Shown here piece after piece: positions 25,043 through 32,072 of a DNA stretch of 64,000 bases. Under the pieces are notes generated by a model. The model saw only the letters and a list, made by a program, of their open reading frames with translations, ran no database searches and was not told where the DNA came from. The position numbers and the translations under genes were made by a program. The DNA comes from Variovorax paradoxus (GTDB lineage: Bacteria; Pseudomonadota; Gammaproteobacteria; Burkholderiales; Burkholderiaceae_C), in NCBI RefSeq assembly GCF_024734665.1, contig NZ_CP102931.1, forward strand, positions 4,524,001-4,588,000. Direction: 5' to 3'. The first letter of the stretch is position 1; each line of letters starts with the position of its first letter.

Positions 25043-28000
25043 TCAAGCTGGCGCGACCCGGCTCAGTTCGTGTTCGTTCTTGCCGCGGCGGCGCAATTTG
25101 TCGAGCAGCAGGTAGACGACCGGCGTCGTCAGCAGGGTCAGCAGCTGGCTGGCGATCAGCCCGCCGATGATGGCCACGCCCAGCGGCCGGCGCAATTCAG
25201 CGCCCTCCCCGAAGCCGATGGCCAGCGGCAGCGCGCCCAGCGCGGCCGCCAACGTGGTCATCAGGATCGGGCGGAAGCGCAGCAGGCAGGCCTCGCGCAC
25301 CGCCTCCAGCGGCGAGAGCCCGCGCGAGCGCTCGGCCTCCAGCGCGAAGTCGATGATCAAAATGGCGTTCTTCTTCACGATGCCGATCAGAAGGAACACG
25401 CCGATCAGCGCAATGATCGAGAACTCCATGCGGAACATCAGCAGCGCCAGCACCGCGCCCACGCCGGCCGAGGGCAGCGTCGACAGCACGGTGATCGGAT
25501 GCACCAGGCTTTCGTACAGGATGCCCAGCACGATGTAGATCACGATCAGCGCGGCCAGGATCAATATGGCCTGCTGCCCCTGCGACTGCTGCGCGCTGGC
25601 CGCCGTGCCGGCGAAGGCGCCGCGCACGTTGGTGGGCATCGCGATGTTGGCCTCGGCCTTGGCAATGGCCTCGCGCGCATCGCCGAGGTTCGCGCCTTCG
25701 GCGAGGTTGAACGAGATGGTGGTCGCCAGTTCGCCGTCTTCATGGCTCACCGAGGTGGCGACCGATTGCTCTTCGAACTTCGCCACTGCCGACAGCGGCA
25801 CGAGCGCGGTGGCCGTGTTGCTCAGCACGTTGCCGGTCGATGCGCTGCGCAGGCCCGCGTTGGCCGACACCGGCACGGAGGTGCTGCTGCTGGCCGTACT
25901 GGTCGTGCTCGAGGACGACGACGAACCTGAACTCGTCGACGTCGTGGTGCTCGCTGCCACCTGCGTGGTCACGGTCTGGCCCCCCACTACCGTCGTCTTG
26001 GTGGCTGGCACGTACACGTCGCTCAGGGCATTGGGACTGCGCGCGTAGCGCGGCGCCCATTCCATCACCACGTGATACTGGTTCAGCTCGGTGTAGATGG
26101 TCGCCACCTGTCGCTGCCCGAAGGCGTTGTAGAGCGCGTTGTCGACGGCCGTGGAAGTAAGGCCCAGCCGGCGCGCGCTGTCGGGGTCGACTTTGGCCAC
26201 CGTCTCCACGCCGTTCTCGTCCTGGTCGGTGTCGATGTCGGTCAGCACCGGCTGCATCTTCAGCTCGTCGGACAGCTTCAGGGCCCAGGTGCGCAGGTCG
26301 GCGAGGTTGTCGCTCTTGAGCGTGTACTGGTAGGTGGAATTGCTGGCGCGACCGCCCGAGCGCACGTCCTGCACGGTGCCCAGGAACACACGCAGGCCCG
26401 TTACTTCGTTGAGCTGTGGCCGCAGCCGCGCGATCACGGCCAGGCCGCTGTCCTTGCGCTGGTTGGCCGGCTTCAGGTTGACGAACATGAAGCCGCCCCC
26501 CGCCCGGCCTGCGCCGGTGAAGCCGACCACGGTGTCGACCGCCTCGTCCTTGCGGATGATGTCGACCACCTGCCGCAGCTTGGCAGCCAGCGCCTGCGAC
26601 GAGATGCTCTGGTCGGCACGCAGGCCGCCGTTGAGCTGCCCGCTGTCCTGCTGCGGGAAGAAGCCCTTGGGCGCGGCGCTGAAGAGATACACATTGAGCC
26701 CGACCACCGCCACCAGGATCAGCATGACCAGCCCCTTGCTGTCGAGCGCCCAGTCGAGGCTGGTCTCGTAGCGCTTGAGCACCCAGTCGTAGCTGCGTGC
26801 CGCCATGCGCCCGAAGCGGCCCTGCGGCTTGCTCTTGTCGTGCTCGCCACCGGGCTTGAGCAGCCACGCGCACATCATGGGCGTGGTGGTCAGCGAGATG
26901 ACGAGCGAGATCATCACCGCCGCCGACAGCGTTACCGCGAACTCGCGGAACAGCCGGCCGACCTGCCCGCCCATGAACAGCAGCGGAATGAACACCGCCA
27001 CCAGCGACACGCTGATCGACAGCACGGTGAAGCCCACTTCCTTCGCGCCCAGCAGCGCCGCCTTCATGCGCGTCATGCCCGACTCGATGTGCCGGCTGGT
27101 GTTTTCGAGCACCACGATGGCGTCGTCCACCACGAAGCCGGTGGCGACCGTGAGCGCCATCAGGCTCAGGTTGTTGAGGCTGAAGCCCAGCAGGTACATG
27201 ACCCCGAAAGTGCCCAGCAGCGCCGCCACCGTGGCCACTGCGGGCACGATGGTCGCGCGCACGCTGCGCAGGAACAGGCTGACCACCAGCACCACCAGGA
27301 TGACCGAGATGACCAGCGTGAGCTCGACCTCGCGCAGCGAGCCGCGGATGGAGTTGGTGCTGTCCGACGCCACCTGCAGCGTGACGTCGGGCGGCAGCTG
27401 AGCCTGCAGCTCGGGCAGCAGCGCGCGCACGCTGTCGACGGTCTCGATGATGTTGGCCGAGGGCTGCCGCGTGATCAGCACGATGATCGCGGGCTCGCCG
27501 TTGAACAGGCCGAGCGTGCGCGTGTCTTCCACGCCATCGACCACCTCCGCCACGTCCTGGAGCCGCACGGCCGCGCCGTTGCGCCAGGCGATGACCATCG
27601 GCGCGTAGTCGCTCGCGCGCAGGGCCGGCGTCTGCGTGTATATCTGCAGCTTGCGGCCTTCGCCCTGGACCGTGCCCTTGGGGCGGTTGGCGTTGGAGGC
27701 CTGGATGGCGGCGCGCACGTCTTCGGTGCTGATGCCGTAGCGGCTGAGCGCGAACGGCAGCAGCTCGATGCGCACGGCTGGGAGCGAGCCACCGCCGATT
27801 TCGACGTCGCCCACGCCATCTACCTGGGACAGGCGCTGGCTGACGATGTTCGAGACGGCGTCGTAGATCTGGCCCGGGGTCTTGGTCTTGGACGTGAGGG
27901 CCAGGATGATGACCGGCGAGGCGGCCGGGTTGGCCTTGCGGTAGGTCGGGTTGCTTCTTAGTGTGGCGGGCAGGTCGACGCGGCTGGCGTTGATGGCGGC

Positions 28001-28327
28001 CTGCACTTCTCTGGCGGCGCCGTCGATGTTGCGGCTCAGGTCGAACTGCAGGGTGACTCGGGCGGAGCCTACCGAGCTGGTGGACGTCATTTCGTTGACG
28101 CCTGCGATGGTGCCTAAGTGGCGTTCCAGCGGGGTTGCTACGCTGGTTGCCATCGTCTCGGGGCTTGCTCCGGGGATGGAGGCTCTTACTGAGATGACTG
28201 GGTAATCGACTTGGGGGAGTGGGGAGACTGGGAGGACGAAGAATGCGGCTATGCCTGCCAGGGCTATGCCTATGGTCAGTAGGACTGTGCCTATGGGGCG
28301 GCGGACGAAAGGCAGCGAGAGATTCAT
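25043..28327 (-). CDS. RND multidrug efflux permease, MdtC-like
   Basis: Proton-driven inner-membrane efflux subunit, 1094 residues, which should form a heteromeric pump with the MdtB-like protein. Twelve membrane segments and the classical motifs are present ([13 protein letters not shown] in TM4, [15 protein letters not shown]). It is about 70 residues longer than E. coli MdtC. The excess is a Ser/Thr-rich insert near residues 789-815, in the second periplasmic loop. The first hundred or so codons are unusual for this genome: 18 of the first 60 end in A, including four ATA. This segment adjoins the giant palindrome at 28354-28916. Confidence 0.94.
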   Translation of the reverse strand: MNLSLPFVRRPIGTVLLTIGIALAGIAAFFVLPVSPLPQVDYPVISVRASIPGASPETMATSVATPLERHLGTIAGVNEMTSTSSVGSARVTLQFDLSRNIDGAAREVQAAINASRVDLPATLRSNPTYRKANPAASPVIILALTSKTKTPGQIYDAVSNIVSQRLSQVDGVGDVEIGGGSLPAVRIELLPFALSRYGISTEDVRAAIQASNANRPKGTVQGEGRKLQIYTQTPALRASDYAPMVIAWRNGAAVRLQDVAEVVDGVEDTRTLGLFNGEPAIIVLITRQPSANIIETVDSVRALLPELQAQLPPDVTLQVASDSTNSIRGSLREVELTLVISVILVVLVVSLFLRSVRATIVPAVATVAALLGTFGVMYLLGFSLNNLSLMALTVATGFVVDDAIVVLENTSRHIESGMTRMKAALLGAKEVGFTVLSISVSLVAVFIPLLFMGGQVGRLFREFAVTLSAAVMISLVISLTTTPMMCAWLLKPGGEHDKSKPQGRFGRMAARSYDWVLKRYETSLDWALDSKGLVMLILVAVVGLNVYLFSAAPKGFFPQQDSGQLNGGLRADQSISSQALAAKLRQVVDIIRKDEAVDTVVGFTGAGRAGGGFMFVNLKPANQRKDSGLAVIARLRPQLNEVTGLRVFLGTVQDVRSGGRASNSTYQYTLKSDNLADLRTWALKLSDELKMQPVLTDIDTDQDENGVETVAKVDPDSARRLGLTSTAVDNALYNAFGQRQVATIYTELNQYHVVMEWAPRYARSPNALSDVYVPATKTTVVGGQTVTTQVAASTTTSTSSGSSSSSSTTSTASSSTSVPVSANAGLRSASTGNVLSNTATALVPLSAVAKFEEQSVATSVSHEDGELATTISFNLAEGANLGDAREAIAKAEANIAMPTNVRGAFAGTAASAQQSQGQQAILILAALIVIYIVLGILYESLVHPITVLSTLPSAGVGAVLALLMFRMEFSIIALIGVFLLIGIVKKNAILIIDFALEAERSRGLSPLEAVREACLLRFRPILMTTLAAALGALPLAIGFGEGAELRRPLGVAIIGGLIASQLLTLLTTPVVYLLLDKLRRRGKNEHELSRVAPA

Positions 28328-28476
28328 CTTTGCTCTCCTTGCGGAGGGCGGAGGCCGGGTCTCGCCCCGGCGGGCGACCTACTTTTCTTTGCTTCGCCAA
28401 AGAAAAGTAGGCAAAAGAAAGGCGACCCTACTGTCTGCGACCCTTCGCTTCGCTTCGGGCAACCTGCGGTGCTCGA

Positions 28477-28548
28477 CGTAGACGGGGGTCCGCAGAACTC
28501 GCTCCACTGCGTTGCGCTCAGACAGCTGCGGCCCTGATCCCGTCTACG
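28477..28548. repeat. Left side hairpin of the palindromic element
   Basis: CGTAGACGGG (28477-28486) pairs with CCCGTCTACG (28539-28548) over 10 bp, enclosing 52 bases. It sits between the left outer arm and the left inner arm. Its sequence is unrelated to the hairpin at the equivalent position on the right. Confidence 0.8.
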
Positions 28549-28549
28549 T

Positions 28550-28729
28550 CTGCGCTCCTCGGCGCAGCCAGAAGGGAGTTCGAACAGGCCATCGCTTCGC
28601 TCGGCCTTCGAACAGCCAACAGCCAAACTCAACCACCGCAGGCGCTGCGCGCCTGCGGTGGCACCGGGGCCGAGCGAAGCAAAGGCCCGAGTGGTCTCCC
28701 CTCCCCTCTGGCTGCGCCGAGGAGCGCAG
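28550..28729. repeat. Inner perfect inverted repeat and central hairpins
   Basis: Positions 28550-28572 and 28707-28729 are perfect 23-bp inverted copies (the right one begins TCTGGCTGCGCC). Within them, GCTTCGCTCGGCC (28594-28606) pairs with GGCCGAGCGAAGC (28668-28680). At the middle, CCACCGCAGGCGC (28633-28645) and its exact complement (28649-28661) form a 13-bp stem with a 3-base loop. Confidence 0.9.
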
Positions 28730-28794
28730 CGTTTCGCGGATAAGGGCTCGCCCTTGTTTGAGCGAAGCGAGTTTGGGCGAGACCCCGCGAAACG
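28730..28794. repeat. Right side hairpin of the palindromic element
   Basis: CGTTTCGCGG (28730-28739) pairs with CCGCGAAACG (28785-28794). A nested CTCGCCC/GGGCGAG pair lies inside. It takes the same place on the right as the 28477-28548 hairpin does on the left, but with different sequence, which suggests exchangeable modules. Confidence 0.8.
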
Positions 28795-28952
28795 CGAGCA
28801 CCGCAGGTTGCCCGTAGCGAAGCGAAGGGTCGCAGACAGTGGGGTCGCCTTTTCTTTGCTTACTTTCTTTTGGCGAAGCAAAAGAAAGTAAGTCGCCCGC
28901 CGGGGCGAGACCCGGCCCCGGAACGCAAACACGCAACAAGAAGCAAGCCAGC

Positions 28953-31900
28953 TCAAACCGCTTCCTCCTCAATCACCGCCCGCCGCGAGCTCCCCCCACC
29001 CAACCGATCAAACGCCAGATAGATAACAGGCGTAGTGAACAGCGTAAGCAGCTGACTAACAATCAACCCCCCAAAAATCGCCAAGCCAAGAGGCCTCCGC
29101 AACTCAGCCCCTTCCCCAAAACTCAACATCAACGGCACAGCAGCAAACAAGGCAGCCAGCGTAGTCATCAAGATAGGCCGAAACCGCAGCAAAGCAGCCT
29201 GATGAATAGCCTCCCGCGGAGACTTCCCCTGAGTCCGCTCAGCATCGATAGCAAAGTCGATCATCATGATCGCGTTCTTCTTCACGATGCCAATCAGCAG
29301 AATGATCCCGATGATCCCGATCACCCCAAGGTCGTTGCCGGTGATCATCAAGGCAAGCAGGGCCCCGACCCCGGCAGAAGGCAGCGTGGACAAGATAGTC
29401 AGCGGATGCACATAGCTCTCGTACAGCACCCCCAGCACGATGTACACGCAAACCACCGCCGCCAGAATCAGCCACAGCTGGTTAGACAGCGACTTCTCAT
29501 AAGCCCCTGAAGCCCCAAGGAAGGTCATCGTCACGCTGCCGGGCAGCCCGATCTCTTTCGCCGCCGCGCGAATCGCATCGACCGAAGTCCCGAGAGAAAC
29601 CCCTGGCGCCGTATCGAAGTTCAGCGTGCTCGCCGGATACTGCGCCACGTGCGTGATCTGCAGCGGCGCCTGCTGCTCGGTGATGTCCGCAATCGCGGAC
29701 AGCGGCGTCGCGGTGCCGGAGCCGGCGATCAGGCTCAGCTGCCCCAGCGTCTGCGGCGTATTCACCATGCCGGGACGCGCTTCGAGAATCACCCGGTACT
29801 GGTTCGTCTCGGTGAAGATCGTCGACACGATACGCTGGCCGAACGCGCTGTAGAGCGCATCGTCCACCGTACTGGCAGTAATCGACAGCCGCGCCGCGGT
29901 GTCGCGGTTCACGTTGACGAACGCCGCCAGGCCCTGCGCGCCGGCATCGCTGCTTACGTTGCGCACCTTGTCCGAAGTCTGCAGCTTGGCCACGAGCTTC
30001 TTCATCCACTCGGTGATCGCCGCGCTGTCTACGCCCTCCAGCGACACGCGGTACTCGGTCGGGCCGGTCTCGGCGTCGATGGTCAGGTCTTGCGTGGGCT
30101 GCAGGTACAGCGTGACGCCGGCCACCTGCCGCACGCGCTCGCGCAGCCTGTCCATCACGTCCTGCTGGTTGCCGCGGCTCTTCGTCAGGTTGATGAGCAT
30201 GCTGCCGGTGTGCAGCATGGTGTTGTTGGCTGCGTCCACGCCGACGAAGGAGCTGAGGTTCTCGACCTCGGGGTCATCGAGAATGGCTTGCGCCGCCTGC
30301 AATTGCAGCTGCGACATGCGGTCGAAGGACACGTCCTGCGCGGCCTGCACGCGGGCCTGCAACTGGCCAGTGTCCTGCGTGGGGAATAGGCCCTTCGGGA
30401 TCGTGAGGTACAGCACCACCGTCAGCACCATGGTCAGCAGCGCGACCAGCAGCGTGAGCGGCTGATGCTCGATCACCCAGTGCAGCGAGCGGTCGTAGCG
30501 CTCCATCACGCCGCTGAAGAAACGCTGGGCGCGCGCGCCGAAGCCATGGCCGGCGGGATCTTTCTTCGGTTCGTGCCTGAGCCAGCGCGCCGACATCATC
30601 GGCACCAGCGTGAGCGACACCACGGCCGAGATCAGGATGGTGATGGCCAGCGTCACCGCGAACTCGCGGAACAGGCGGCCCACCACGTCGCCCATGAAGA
30701 GCAGCGGAATCAGCACAGCAATGAGCGACACGGTCAGCGAGATGATGGTGAAGCCGATCTGCGTCGCGCCCTTGAATGCGGCCTGCAGTGGTTTTTCGCC
30801 CTCCTCGATGTAGCGCGCGATGTTCTCGATCATGACGATCGCGTCGTCCACCACGAAGCCGGTGGCAATGGTCAGCGCCATCAGGCTCAGGTTGTTGAGG
30901 CTGTAGCCCAGCAGGTACATCAGCCCGAAGGTGCCGATCAGCGAGATGGGCACCGCAATGCTCGCGATGACGGTGGCACGCAGGCTGCCCAGGAAGGCGA
31001 AGATCACGAGCACCACCAGCACCACGGCCAGCACCAGTTCCATCTCGACGTGCTGCACCGACGCGCGGATGCCGGCCGTGCGATCGCTGAGCACCTCGAT
31101 CTTCAGCCCGGCGGGCAAGCCGGTCTGAAGATCGGGCAGTTGCTTCTTGATGGCATCGACGGTGGCGATCACGTTGGCGCCCGGCTGGCGCTGCACGTTC
31201 ATGATGATCGCGGGCGACAGCTTGTTGGTGCCGTCGGCCTTGTTGCCGGCCCAGGCGCTGAGCTGGTTGTTCTCGGCGCTGTTGACCACCTGCGCCACGT
31301 CGACCATGCGGATCGGCGCGCCGTTCTTGTACGTGACGATGAGGTTCTTGTAGTCGTCGACCGTGAGCAGCTGGTCGTTCGAGTTGATGGTGTAGGCGCG
31401 CTTGGGGCCGTCGAAGCTGCCCTTGGCACCGTTGGAATTGGCTGCCGAGATGGCCGTGCGCAGCGTGTCGAGCCCGATGCCGTTGGCAGCGAGGGCCTGC
31501 GTGTTGGCCTGGATGCGCACCGCCGGGCGCTGCCCGCCGCTGAGCGACACCAGCCCCACGCCCGAGACCTGGCTGATCTTCTGCGCGAGCCGTGTGTTGA
31601 CGAGGTTCTGCACCTCGGTGAGCGGCAGCGTGTCGGACGTGATCGAGAGCGTGAGCACCGGCGCGTCGGCCGGGTTCACCTTGGCGTACACGGGCGGCGC
31701 CGGCAGGTCGGCCGGCAGCAGCGAGCCGCCGGCGTTGATGGCGGCCTGCACTTCCTGCTCGGCCACATCGAGCGTCTGGCCCAGCGAGAACTGCAGCGTG
31801 ATGATCGACACGCCCGCGGCACTGGTCGAGCTCATGCGGTCGAGCCCCGACATCTGGCCGAACTGGCGTTCCAGCGGCGCGGTAACGGTGTTGCTCATGA

Positions 31901-32072
31901 CCTCGGGGCTGCCCCCGGGGTAGAGCGTCTGCACCTGGATGGTCGGGTAGTCGACCTGCGGCAATGCCGACAGCGGCAGGAAGCGGAACGCCACCAGGCC
32001 GGCCAGCACGATGGCGACCATCAGCAGCGAGGTCGCCACCGGCCGGAGGATGAACGGACGTGACGGGTTCAC
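28953..32072 (-). CDS. RND multidrug efflux permease, MdtB-like
   Basis: Second proton-driven RND subunit, 1039 residues, matching the usual MdtB length. Typical motifs are [17 protein letters not shown] at the N-terminus, [21 protein letters not shown] in TM4, and [17 protein letters not shown]. It is translated 34 bp after the fusion protein and should pair with the MdtC-like subunit. The last 150-200 codons depart from the genome pattern: of the final 60 codons, only 4 end in C, 20 end in T and 6 are TTG. Codon use returns to normal upstream of about 29500. The 625-bp palindromic gap separates it from the MdtC gene. Confidence 0.95.

Follow-up and report, generated by a model that had tools for sequence, protein, structure and literature searches.

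In yeast, the 3' overhangs left by resection mutate on the overhang strand (PMC3521656), and in cancer, breaks are associated with showers of mutations on the same strand (PMC3628087), according to the accessible parts of both reports. In Escherichia coli, as far as the accessible text of the sources goes, break repair can be mutagenic, with damaged bases and a low-fidelity polymerase (PMC5542668), and a 246-bp interrupted palindrome in the chromosome undergoes a recurrent, SbcCD-dependent break that is repaired by recombination (PMC4213011); recombination genes in bacteria are treated in PMC1193525, also accessible in part. Here we describe a giant imperfect palindrome (hereafter, the element) in a window of 64,000 nucleotides from Variovorax paradoxus (assembly GCF_024734665.1, contig NZ_CP102931.1, positions 4,524,001 to 4,588,000), where it lies between an mdtC-like and an mdtB-like gene. 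The original prediction had described a mirror-image skew in the synonymous sites on its two sides, each strand being rich in keto bases (G and T) when read 5' to 3' into the repeat (hereafter, the into-strand). We confirmed this skew and found it to be general across copies of the element and unexplained by ordinary causes, and we consider it very probable that the palindrome drives strand-specific change around itself.

Kataegis and the resected overhangs of yeast are similar to what we find here, in that changes are coordinated on the 3'-ended strand, with a strand switch across the centre, over hundreds of bases. Unlike kataegis, however, the record at the element is a fixed compositional scar of evolutionary scale, in bacteria and at recurring sites; the break is one that we infer, and no deaminase is known. 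The deaminase signature of kataegis, almost only C changes, does not apply either, since G>T is raised more than C>T. REPINs, REP-BIMEs and MITE-like repeats are non-coding, multi-copy, mostly intergenic and hairpin-forming, and the element shares all of these properties; unlike them, it is far longer than a REP, no transposase partner was identified for it (no search was aimed at one), and the scar is carried by the host flanks. The E. coli palindrome (PMC4213011) is also a long chromosomal inverted repeat, and at the element a stretch of 581 nt folds as a single hairpin (-277.7 kcal/mol with DNA parameters; z -27.8 over 100 shuffles); recurrent breakage repaired by recombination is what was seen there and what we propose here. 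In contrast to it, the element is natural and multi-copy, and in the V. paradoxus genome no canonical SbcC or SbcD was called, only a distant Mre11-Rad50-like pair of genes; in the accessible part of its report, the E. coli work looked at rpoB mutation rather than at the flanks. The mutagenic break repair that stress induces in E. coli (PMC5542668) resembles our proposal in that damaged bases and a low-fidelity polymerase are what make the repair of double-strand breaks error-prone, but it needs stress responses, and the accessible part of the report describes no strand-mirrored compositional record. Our literature search, at the level of search results and with subscription literature thinly covered, found no description of this flanking skew, and a text search for the letters of the hairpin gave matches only in fields that are unrelated by title.

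At the mdtBC locus, an exact recount reproduced the numbers that had been obtained by hand. On the coding strand, the wobble bases of the first 60 codons of the mdtC-like gene are A 18, C 31, G 8 and T 3, and those of the last 60 codons of the mdtB-like gene (stop excluded) are A 2, C 4, G 34 and T 20. The resulting keto fractions, 0.18 and 0.90, are both outside the range of 0.22-0.85 seen in 950 control windows of 60 codons (12 x 20 kb of the same genome, with frames from a simple purpose-written gene caller). On the + strand, wobble keto is 0.65-0.93 in all blocks over 27,683-28,325, with a peak of 0.93 at 28,163-28,280, and about 0.5 farther out. On the right side it is 0.10-0.23 over 28,953-29,310 (0.10-0.12 at 28,953-29,190), then 0.38 at 29,313-29,430, 0.25-0.28 at 29,433-29,670 and 0.38-0.47 up to 30,030. 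The bias was said to fade by about 27920 and 29550; it does fade, but it reaches slightly farther, to 27,683 on one side and 29,670 on the other, and more weakly to 30,030.

The source genome (7.29 Mb, a single contig) contains seven full copies of the element, one half copy (5,954,754-5,955,010) and one tip-only remnant of 40 bp near 2,071,911. Within the first 200 bp, keto skew is +0.22 to +0.38 on the left and -0.31 to -0.44 on the right at 7/7 full copies, so that all of them switch strand at the centre, compared with a standard deviation of 0.093 and a 0.1-99.9% range of -0.26 to +0.26 in 1407 control windows of 200 bp. The half copy shows the skew beside its intact end only, and the tip remnant has +0.51 on the left and -0.39 on the right. 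The two sides are nearly equal at every full copy (600-bp values: left 0.19-0.28, right 0.21-0.38), which fits a two-ended event. The sign tracks the repeat and not gene orientation, and is identical beside the 5' and 3' ends of genes. A scan for such flips in 463,208 bp (the window and 20 fetched stretches, eight of those picked around copies) placed the seven full copies and the tip remnant in the top eight positions (scores 0.50-0.76), the next score being 0.39; at the weaker flips of this genome (0.34-0.39) we found no unusual structure. Flips in the opposite sense went down to -0.46 in the same scan, the strongest being at the outer edges of scars and the others at -0.35 to -0.38.

Pooling fourfold-degenerate wobble positions of the into-strand over the seven copies, C falls from 0.44-0.46 to 0.11 and T rises from 0.05 to 0.35 adjoining the repeat, while G goes from about 0.45 to 0.63 at 300-400 bp. 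Keto content by bin out to 1 kb is 0.84 (0-100 bp), 0.84, 0.81, 0.79 (300-400 bp), 0.70, 0.63 (600-800 bp) and 0.58, and at most 0.53 beyond. These pooled values come from a simple gene-calling script, and errors in individual genes are possible, since some of its frames overlap the element; for mdtB and mdtC, the counts used the frames of the genes themselves. The width of the scar varies by species, from about 200-400 bp in genome G020 to 600-800 bp in G033 and up to 1 kb in G000. The idea that any hairpin gives skew was also considered and rejected: 63 other hairpins (stem at least 11, loci of at least 4 kb, away from recognised copies) had a mean difference of 0.056 (standard deviation 0.172), with 52% positive, though the set includes at least two stretches of N and several variants of the element, so that the true control is smaller.

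The 127-bp arm was matched in 28 of the 61 genomes searched and in 36 of 100 family genomes, one per genus (own genome included in both counts). Twenty loci were fetched from six genomes of the genus, and the 17 two-armed ones have the expected sign on both sides (17/17); of the other three loci, L089 and L090 each carry an interrupting gene, similar in kind, and one is single-armed. Among 20 family loci from nine genomes, 15 are two-armed, with the left side positive in 15/15 and the right side negative in 14/15 (the exception is L188). The original prediction had staked itself on a flanking skew at other copies, and we found it at 7/7 full copies of the same genome and in 77/78 flanks when own, genus and family two-armed copies are taken together. 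Single-armed copies have a skew of at least 0.2 at the intact tip in 6/7 cases (the exception is L176). Plasmid records from Paraburkholderia (L139, L173) and Pasteurella multocida (L169) show both-side skew, which is weak in Comamonas (L172); three further plasmid records with a short match, in which we found no two-armed palindrome (L170, L171, L174), have no skew.

Some palindromes are interrupted. In genome G033, transposase genes lie mid-palindrome (L089 4330-5293, IS110 family by Pfam, and L090 2273-3236), and the skew is present outside the palindrome, with none in the DNA inside. In the Paraburkholderia caribensis plasmid (L139 5053-6887) the skew is likewise found only outside both arms, and the interrupting gene is presumably an IS256-like (IS256-type) transposase. 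The IS110-type and IS256-like genes of these copies look like passengers.

Orthologous sites with and without the element were also compared. Among the 30 best mdtC loci out of 100 genus genomes, the skew is present at 18 with a full-length element, at four cut by a contig end beside an arm, and at L111, where the contig ends before any element is visible. Three tip remnants (L123, identified by eye, L129 and L136) have keto values in the first 80 codons of 0.60-0.80 on the left and 0.12-0.35 on the right, and a degenerate one-armed copy (L110) has little skew. The element-free loci L134 and L135 have no skew, and L122 is unskewed only in the nearest 40 codons. In 20 further element-free loci, the first 80 codons have a mean keto of 0.510 on the left (standard deviation 0.075) and 0.414 on the right, with a rather low right side at L350 (0.33, 0.28). 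The left-side skew is missing in 18 of these 20, and the other two, which have the highest values, hold another inverted repeat; thus, the codon pattern is mostly absent from repeat-free orthologues, as had been anticipated. The two exceptions, L363 (genome G008) and L369 (G005), contain a different, GGGAGAGGG-type inverted repeat in the same mdtB-mdtC gap, with same-sign skew on both sides. The repeat of L363 has 196 nt (-97.5 kcal/mol, RNA parameters; keto 0.70 left, 0.30 and 0.12 right), and that of L369 is weaker, with 105 nt (-31.5 kcal/mol). T is not raised in their flanks (0.03-0.04), so that the skew there is mainly G for C. The same scar beside an unrelated repeat, at L363, speaks for geometry rather than sequence, at this one locus.

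Thirty loci were also read for a second gene, which from its protein we take to be glgB. The 22 sites with a detected element have a keto of 0.65-0.93 in the two nearest 40-codon bins, and two without it (L320, L341) have 0.42-0.50. Tip-only copies (L326, L328) are skewed equally to full copies, L331 and L339 are intermediate, and L333 is cut by a contig end. We observed repeated shrinkage of the palindrome to its outermost short hairpin (L048 9905-9944, L129, L136, L326, L328).

To see how the skew arises, wobble changes were polarised in sister pairs against four outgroup sequences, of which three or more had to agree, in codons with constant first two bases, and counted on the into-strand within about 360 bp of the element and beyond 750 bp. 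For several hundred bases to either side, whatever the gene orientation, the into-strand accumulates C>T and G>T at mdtC and glgB alike; C>G accumulates at mdtC alone. When mdtC (11 pairs) and glgB (10 pairs) were pooled, the near and far rates were 39/537 vs 104/4281 for C>T (p=5e-8), 59/1748 vs 12/3072 for G>T (p=4e-16) and 25/537 vs 108/4281 for C>G (p=0.008). The complementary changes were not raised (G>A 39/1748 vs 82/3072; C>A 1/537 vs 21/4281; G>C 64/1748 vs 86/3072), and T>G gave 28/543 vs 0/68 (p=0.06). Taken alone, mdtC had p=2e-8 for C>T, p=1e-15 for G>T and p=4e-4 for C>G (24/302 vs 79/2380), and glgB had p=0.03 for C>T and p=0.002 for G>T. An initial test on mdtC and mdtB, with 10 pairs, agreed with this: C>T behaved likewise to the left and right of the element, as did G>T in the majority of proximal bins. 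Cytosine deamination alone was rejected as the source of these changes, being insufficient given that G>T rises too.

Element-free mdtC loci were analyzed in the same way (8 pairs, from 18 of the 20 loci, L363 and L369 excluded, plus L134 and L135). Strand bias is absent from their proximal rates (C>T 17/468, G>A 34/658, G>T 2/658, C>A 6/468). With the element they are C>T 23/302, G>A 24/1147, G>T 43/1147 and C>A 1/302; per site, C>T occurs at 3.6x the rate of its complement G>A, and G>T at 11x that of C>A. The difference in proximal G>T between loci with and without the element (43/1147 vs 2/658) has p=8e-7. In seven close mdtC pairs, wobble divergence is 0.297 near the element vs 0.078 far from it, and amino-acid difference is not raised (0.015 near vs 0.025 far); the element-free pair L134-L135 has no gradient of divergence. 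The original prediction held that neighbouring synonymous sites are rewritten or constrained by some process with the element at its centre. Such a process is supported, and rewriting is better backed than constraint, because synonymous divergence at mdtC climbs toward the element and protein divergence does not, and because the most raised change, G>T, is keto-to-keto and indifferent to keto selection.

Our preferred reading, to which we give somewhat better than even odds, is that the skew is a mutational scar, left when the 3'-ended strand is filled in with errors after a break or gap. The palindrome would extrude a hairpin or cruciform, or block synthesis, and the repeat would as a result be broken or gapped time and again, possibly by a distant Mre11-Rad50-like nuclease. 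Resection of the 5' ends would expose a few hundred bases of the 3'-ended strand, which to the left as to the right of the repeat is the into-strand, and deamination, oxidation or base loss may then strike it. Error-prone gap filling would put A or C opposite the lesions, fixing T or G on the into-strand. From general knowledge, a deaminated or lost C would yield C>T, an oxidised or lost G would yield G>T by insertion of A, and insertion of C would yield C>G. Purifying selection on the proteins would leave the surviving changes at synonymous sites, and the decay of the skew with distance would reflect the lengths of the exposed tracts.

Several alternatives could produce parts of this picture. 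In one of them the flanks of a chronically broken site are kept G/T-rich on the 3'-overhang strand by selection, for RecA loading or chi-like AddAB signals, with keto alleles being fixed. The skew does agree in sign with the way chi is oriented and with RecA's preference for GT, 20 kb of flank contain GCTGGTGG 7x on the into-strand vs 1x on its complement, the genome encodes an AddA-like helicase (TIGR02784, 327.5 bits, under cut-off), and T>C, plus G>A at mdtC, is lower near the element. However, G>T, which is neutral under such selection, is the most raised change both near vs far and with vs without the element, synonymous change at mdtC is faster near the element and not slower, and no motif is dominant in the flanks, the top 5-mers being mostly non-keto words and the skew diffuse; we consider selection unlikely. 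Chi-like motif selection in particular was discarded as a candidate, with no dominant word in the flanks. Similarly doubtful is that a trans-acting nuclease, of HUH/Y1 type or other, nicks the hairpins of the element as in REPIN- or MITE-like systems, so that repair from the nick mutates the flank and the giant palindrome is incidental. It would account for the full-strength skew that tip-only copies can hold and for the skewed intact tips of single-arm copies (6/7), and the hairpin sequence is common to many taxa among the matches listed in our pattern search; yet the unrelated 196-nt inverted repeat at the mdtBC site of L363, one locus, has same-sign skew, and we recognised no transposase in the uninterrupted element, whose reading frames were not searched for homologues.

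Single-stranded DNA beside the hairpin could also be exposed by fork stalling on the lagging-strand template, with no two-ended break, and a hairpin on that template is an accepted intermediate at the E. coli palindrome, according to the accessible part of PMC4213011. A fork passing mainly one way would expose the into-strand on one side, however, whereas at each full copy in this genome the skew is of similar size on either side (GC skew being too noisy to give the direction of replication), and we regard this explanation as improbable. We see hardly any chance for a last one, that the element prefers to insert at existing keto flips, or that gene orientation, gene ends or operon junctions produce the flip incidentally. 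Elements do sit at gene borders, and L338 is skewed with no detected element, but empty sites are mostly free of the flip (18/20 at the left side of mdtC; L134 and L135; L320 and L341), the sign is the same beside 5' and 3' gene ends and in both gene orientations, and no other site in the 463 kb scanned flips as strongly in this sense. Pre-existing skew and insertion preference were thus ruled out by the empty orthologues, and gene orientation, gene ends and translation by the same sign in differing gene arrangements. The earlier claim that neither gene identity nor a single transfer explains the skew is supported by the skew at other copies and by its scarcity at orthologues without the repeat.

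A number of observations weigh against the mutational scar as we propose it. Breaks, resection, single-stranded DNA and the polymerase are all steps that we infer, and canonical SbcC and SbcD are under cut-off. In E. coli, a chronic break at the 246-bp palindrome gave no rise in rpoB mutation (PMC4213011, accessible part), break-adjacent sites not being the test there. The decrease of T>C near the element (38/543 vs 12/68, p=0.007, pooled), and that of G>A at mdtC, are not predicted by a pure mutation model; the enrichment of G at 200-600 bp is greater than C>T alone yields, and C>G is not raised at glgB (1/235 vs 29/1901). Tip-only remnants, with a palindrome of about 40 bp (L048, L326, L328), can match the skew of full copies, so either the full palindrome is dispensable or the deletions are recent. 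The glgB site L338 is an exception among repeat-free orthologues, with a keto of 0.75 and no detected element, and the sign fails in 8/79 of the listed named flanks described below, including Quinella, Gallionella, Desulfobacterales, one Xanthomonas and one Polaromonas. Finally, divergence rises mildly toward the gap in nine further element-free mdtC pairs, one of them L363-L369 (0.144 to 0.225), and at glgB a no-element pair diverges more toward the gene end, where protein change rises as well, making the rate gradient at glgB uninformative.

Canonical SbcC and SbcD were not called in the V. paradoxus genome, where the best scores were 25.1 bits (cut-off 478.5) for SbcC, with 53 of 105 first-look candidates scored, and 52.2 bits (cut-off 77.65) for SbcD. 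At about 3,297,949-3,301,718 (L372 1150-4919), however, lies a gene for a Rad50/SMC-like ATPase (875 aa) whose start is overlapped by that for an SbcD/Mre11-like phosphoesterase (381 aa). The phosphoesterase has a Metallophos domain and weak similarity to SbcD and Mre11 structures, and all matches of the pair are under the curated cut-offs for SbcC, SbcD and Rad50. Because of the overlap, the two genes may encode a distant Mre11-Rad50-type nuclease, a candidate for opening the hairpin. Among 37 genus genomes, canonical-type SbcC was found only in G026 and G012, both without the element (G012 is 62% complete). Among 99 other family genomes, with only seven candidates scored per genome, 10 had a canonical-type SbcC match (at least 90 bits), and the element is present in 8/10 of these vs 27/89 of those without such a match. 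The element thus occurs both with and without canonical SbcC. The association at genus level is opposite in direction to that at family level, and the hypothesis that palindromes persist only where canonical SbcC is missing fails at the latter.

The conserved arm hairpin of the element was searched for as a pattern in named genomes, which gave at least 120 stretches, 80 of them listed (L195-L274) and analyzed. Among the matches listed, oriented hairpins (79 measurable) have a mean skew of +0.223 in the first 200 bp, with 71/79 positive (p ~1e-13), decaying to +0.008 at 800-1000 bp, and the five unoriented ones have a mean of +0.112. Within this set, Variovorax, Paraburkholderia, most Dyella, Dechloromonas and Methylomonas loci are clearly skewed, and little or no skew is seen in most Quinella, Gallionella, Desulfobacterales, Aeromonas, Methylotenera and Xanthomonas loci. 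The hairpin itself, ACTTTYYTTTG-N6-CAAARRAAAGT, is common to very distant bacteria among these listed matches, including Selenomonadales and Bacteroidetes-labelled assemblies.

It is an even call, in our view, whether the widespread giant palindromes (in Comamonadaceae, Burkholderiaceae, Dyella, Methylomonas, Pasteurella and others) are chronic break-and-repair sites with flanks permanently hypermutable on the 3'-overhang strand, a natural bacterial analogue of kataegis that is heritable, leaves its record in synonymous sites and can be read from genome sequence alone, and that operates even where no canonical SbcCD is found. If so, bacterial chromosomes would hold built-in zones of local hypermutation that can be located by base composition, and the length and strand of each scar would report how a lineage naturally resects and fills its breaks. 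With copies spread over many species, and empty orthologous sites to serve as controls, these repeats would provide a ready comparative assay for the processing of palindromes outside E. coli, for the polymerase that fills resected ends, and for the lesions of natural single-stranded DNA. Inferences based on codon usage and divergence would be distorted near such repeats.

The features of the locus are collected in Table 1. The best NCBIfam matches of the two flanking genes are MdtC (NF007905, 1353.6 bits, cut-off 1774) and MdtB/MuxB (NF007798, 1489.5 bits, cut-off 1584); since both scores are under the curated cut-offs, we call them mdtC-like and mdtB-like.

Table 1. Features of the palindrome and its host genes, in coordinates of the window.
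Feature	Position	Strand	Size or composition	Evidence
Giant imperfect palindrome (element)	28353-28917	.	~565 bp	Inverted repeats; fold; full copies elsewhere in genome
Outer arms of palindrome	28353-28475 and 28795-28917		123 nt each, 92% complementary	Inverted-repeat search
Left outer tip, GCCGGGTCTCGCCCCGGC-type short hairpin	28353-28377	+		Copy alignment; portion left in tip-only remnants
Left conserved arm hairpin, CCTACTTTTCTTTG-loop-CAAAGAAAAGTAGG	28378-28411	+		Inverted pair I5; hairpin type recurs in many other taxa
Right conserved arm hairpin, CTTACTTTCTTTTG-loop-CAAAAGAAAGTAAG	28859-28892	+		Inverted pair I6
Central hairpin of palindrome	28633-28661	+		Inverted pair I10; fold
Left scar, 5' end of mdtC-like gene	27683-28327	+	+ strand wobble keto-rich (T and G in place of C)	Wobble profile, exact counts
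Right scar, 3' end of mdtB-like gene	28953-29670	-	- strand wobble keto-rich	Wobble profile, exact counts
mdtC-like RND efflux permease gene	25043-28327	-	1094 aa	NCBIfam best match MdtC, under cut-off
mdtB-like RND efflux permease gene	28953-32072	-	1039 aa	NCBIfam best match MdtB/MuxB, under cut-off

In a search of the element against Rfam, the single match scored 28.9 bits, under its gathering score of 168, so that none was above threshold, and the phage records searched with it gave no match. Reading frames of 101-210 aa overlap the palindrome. In the mdtC-like protein, the best NCBIfam stretch stops at residue 811 of 1094, and there is a second stretch; the C-terminal part of the protein looks unusual.

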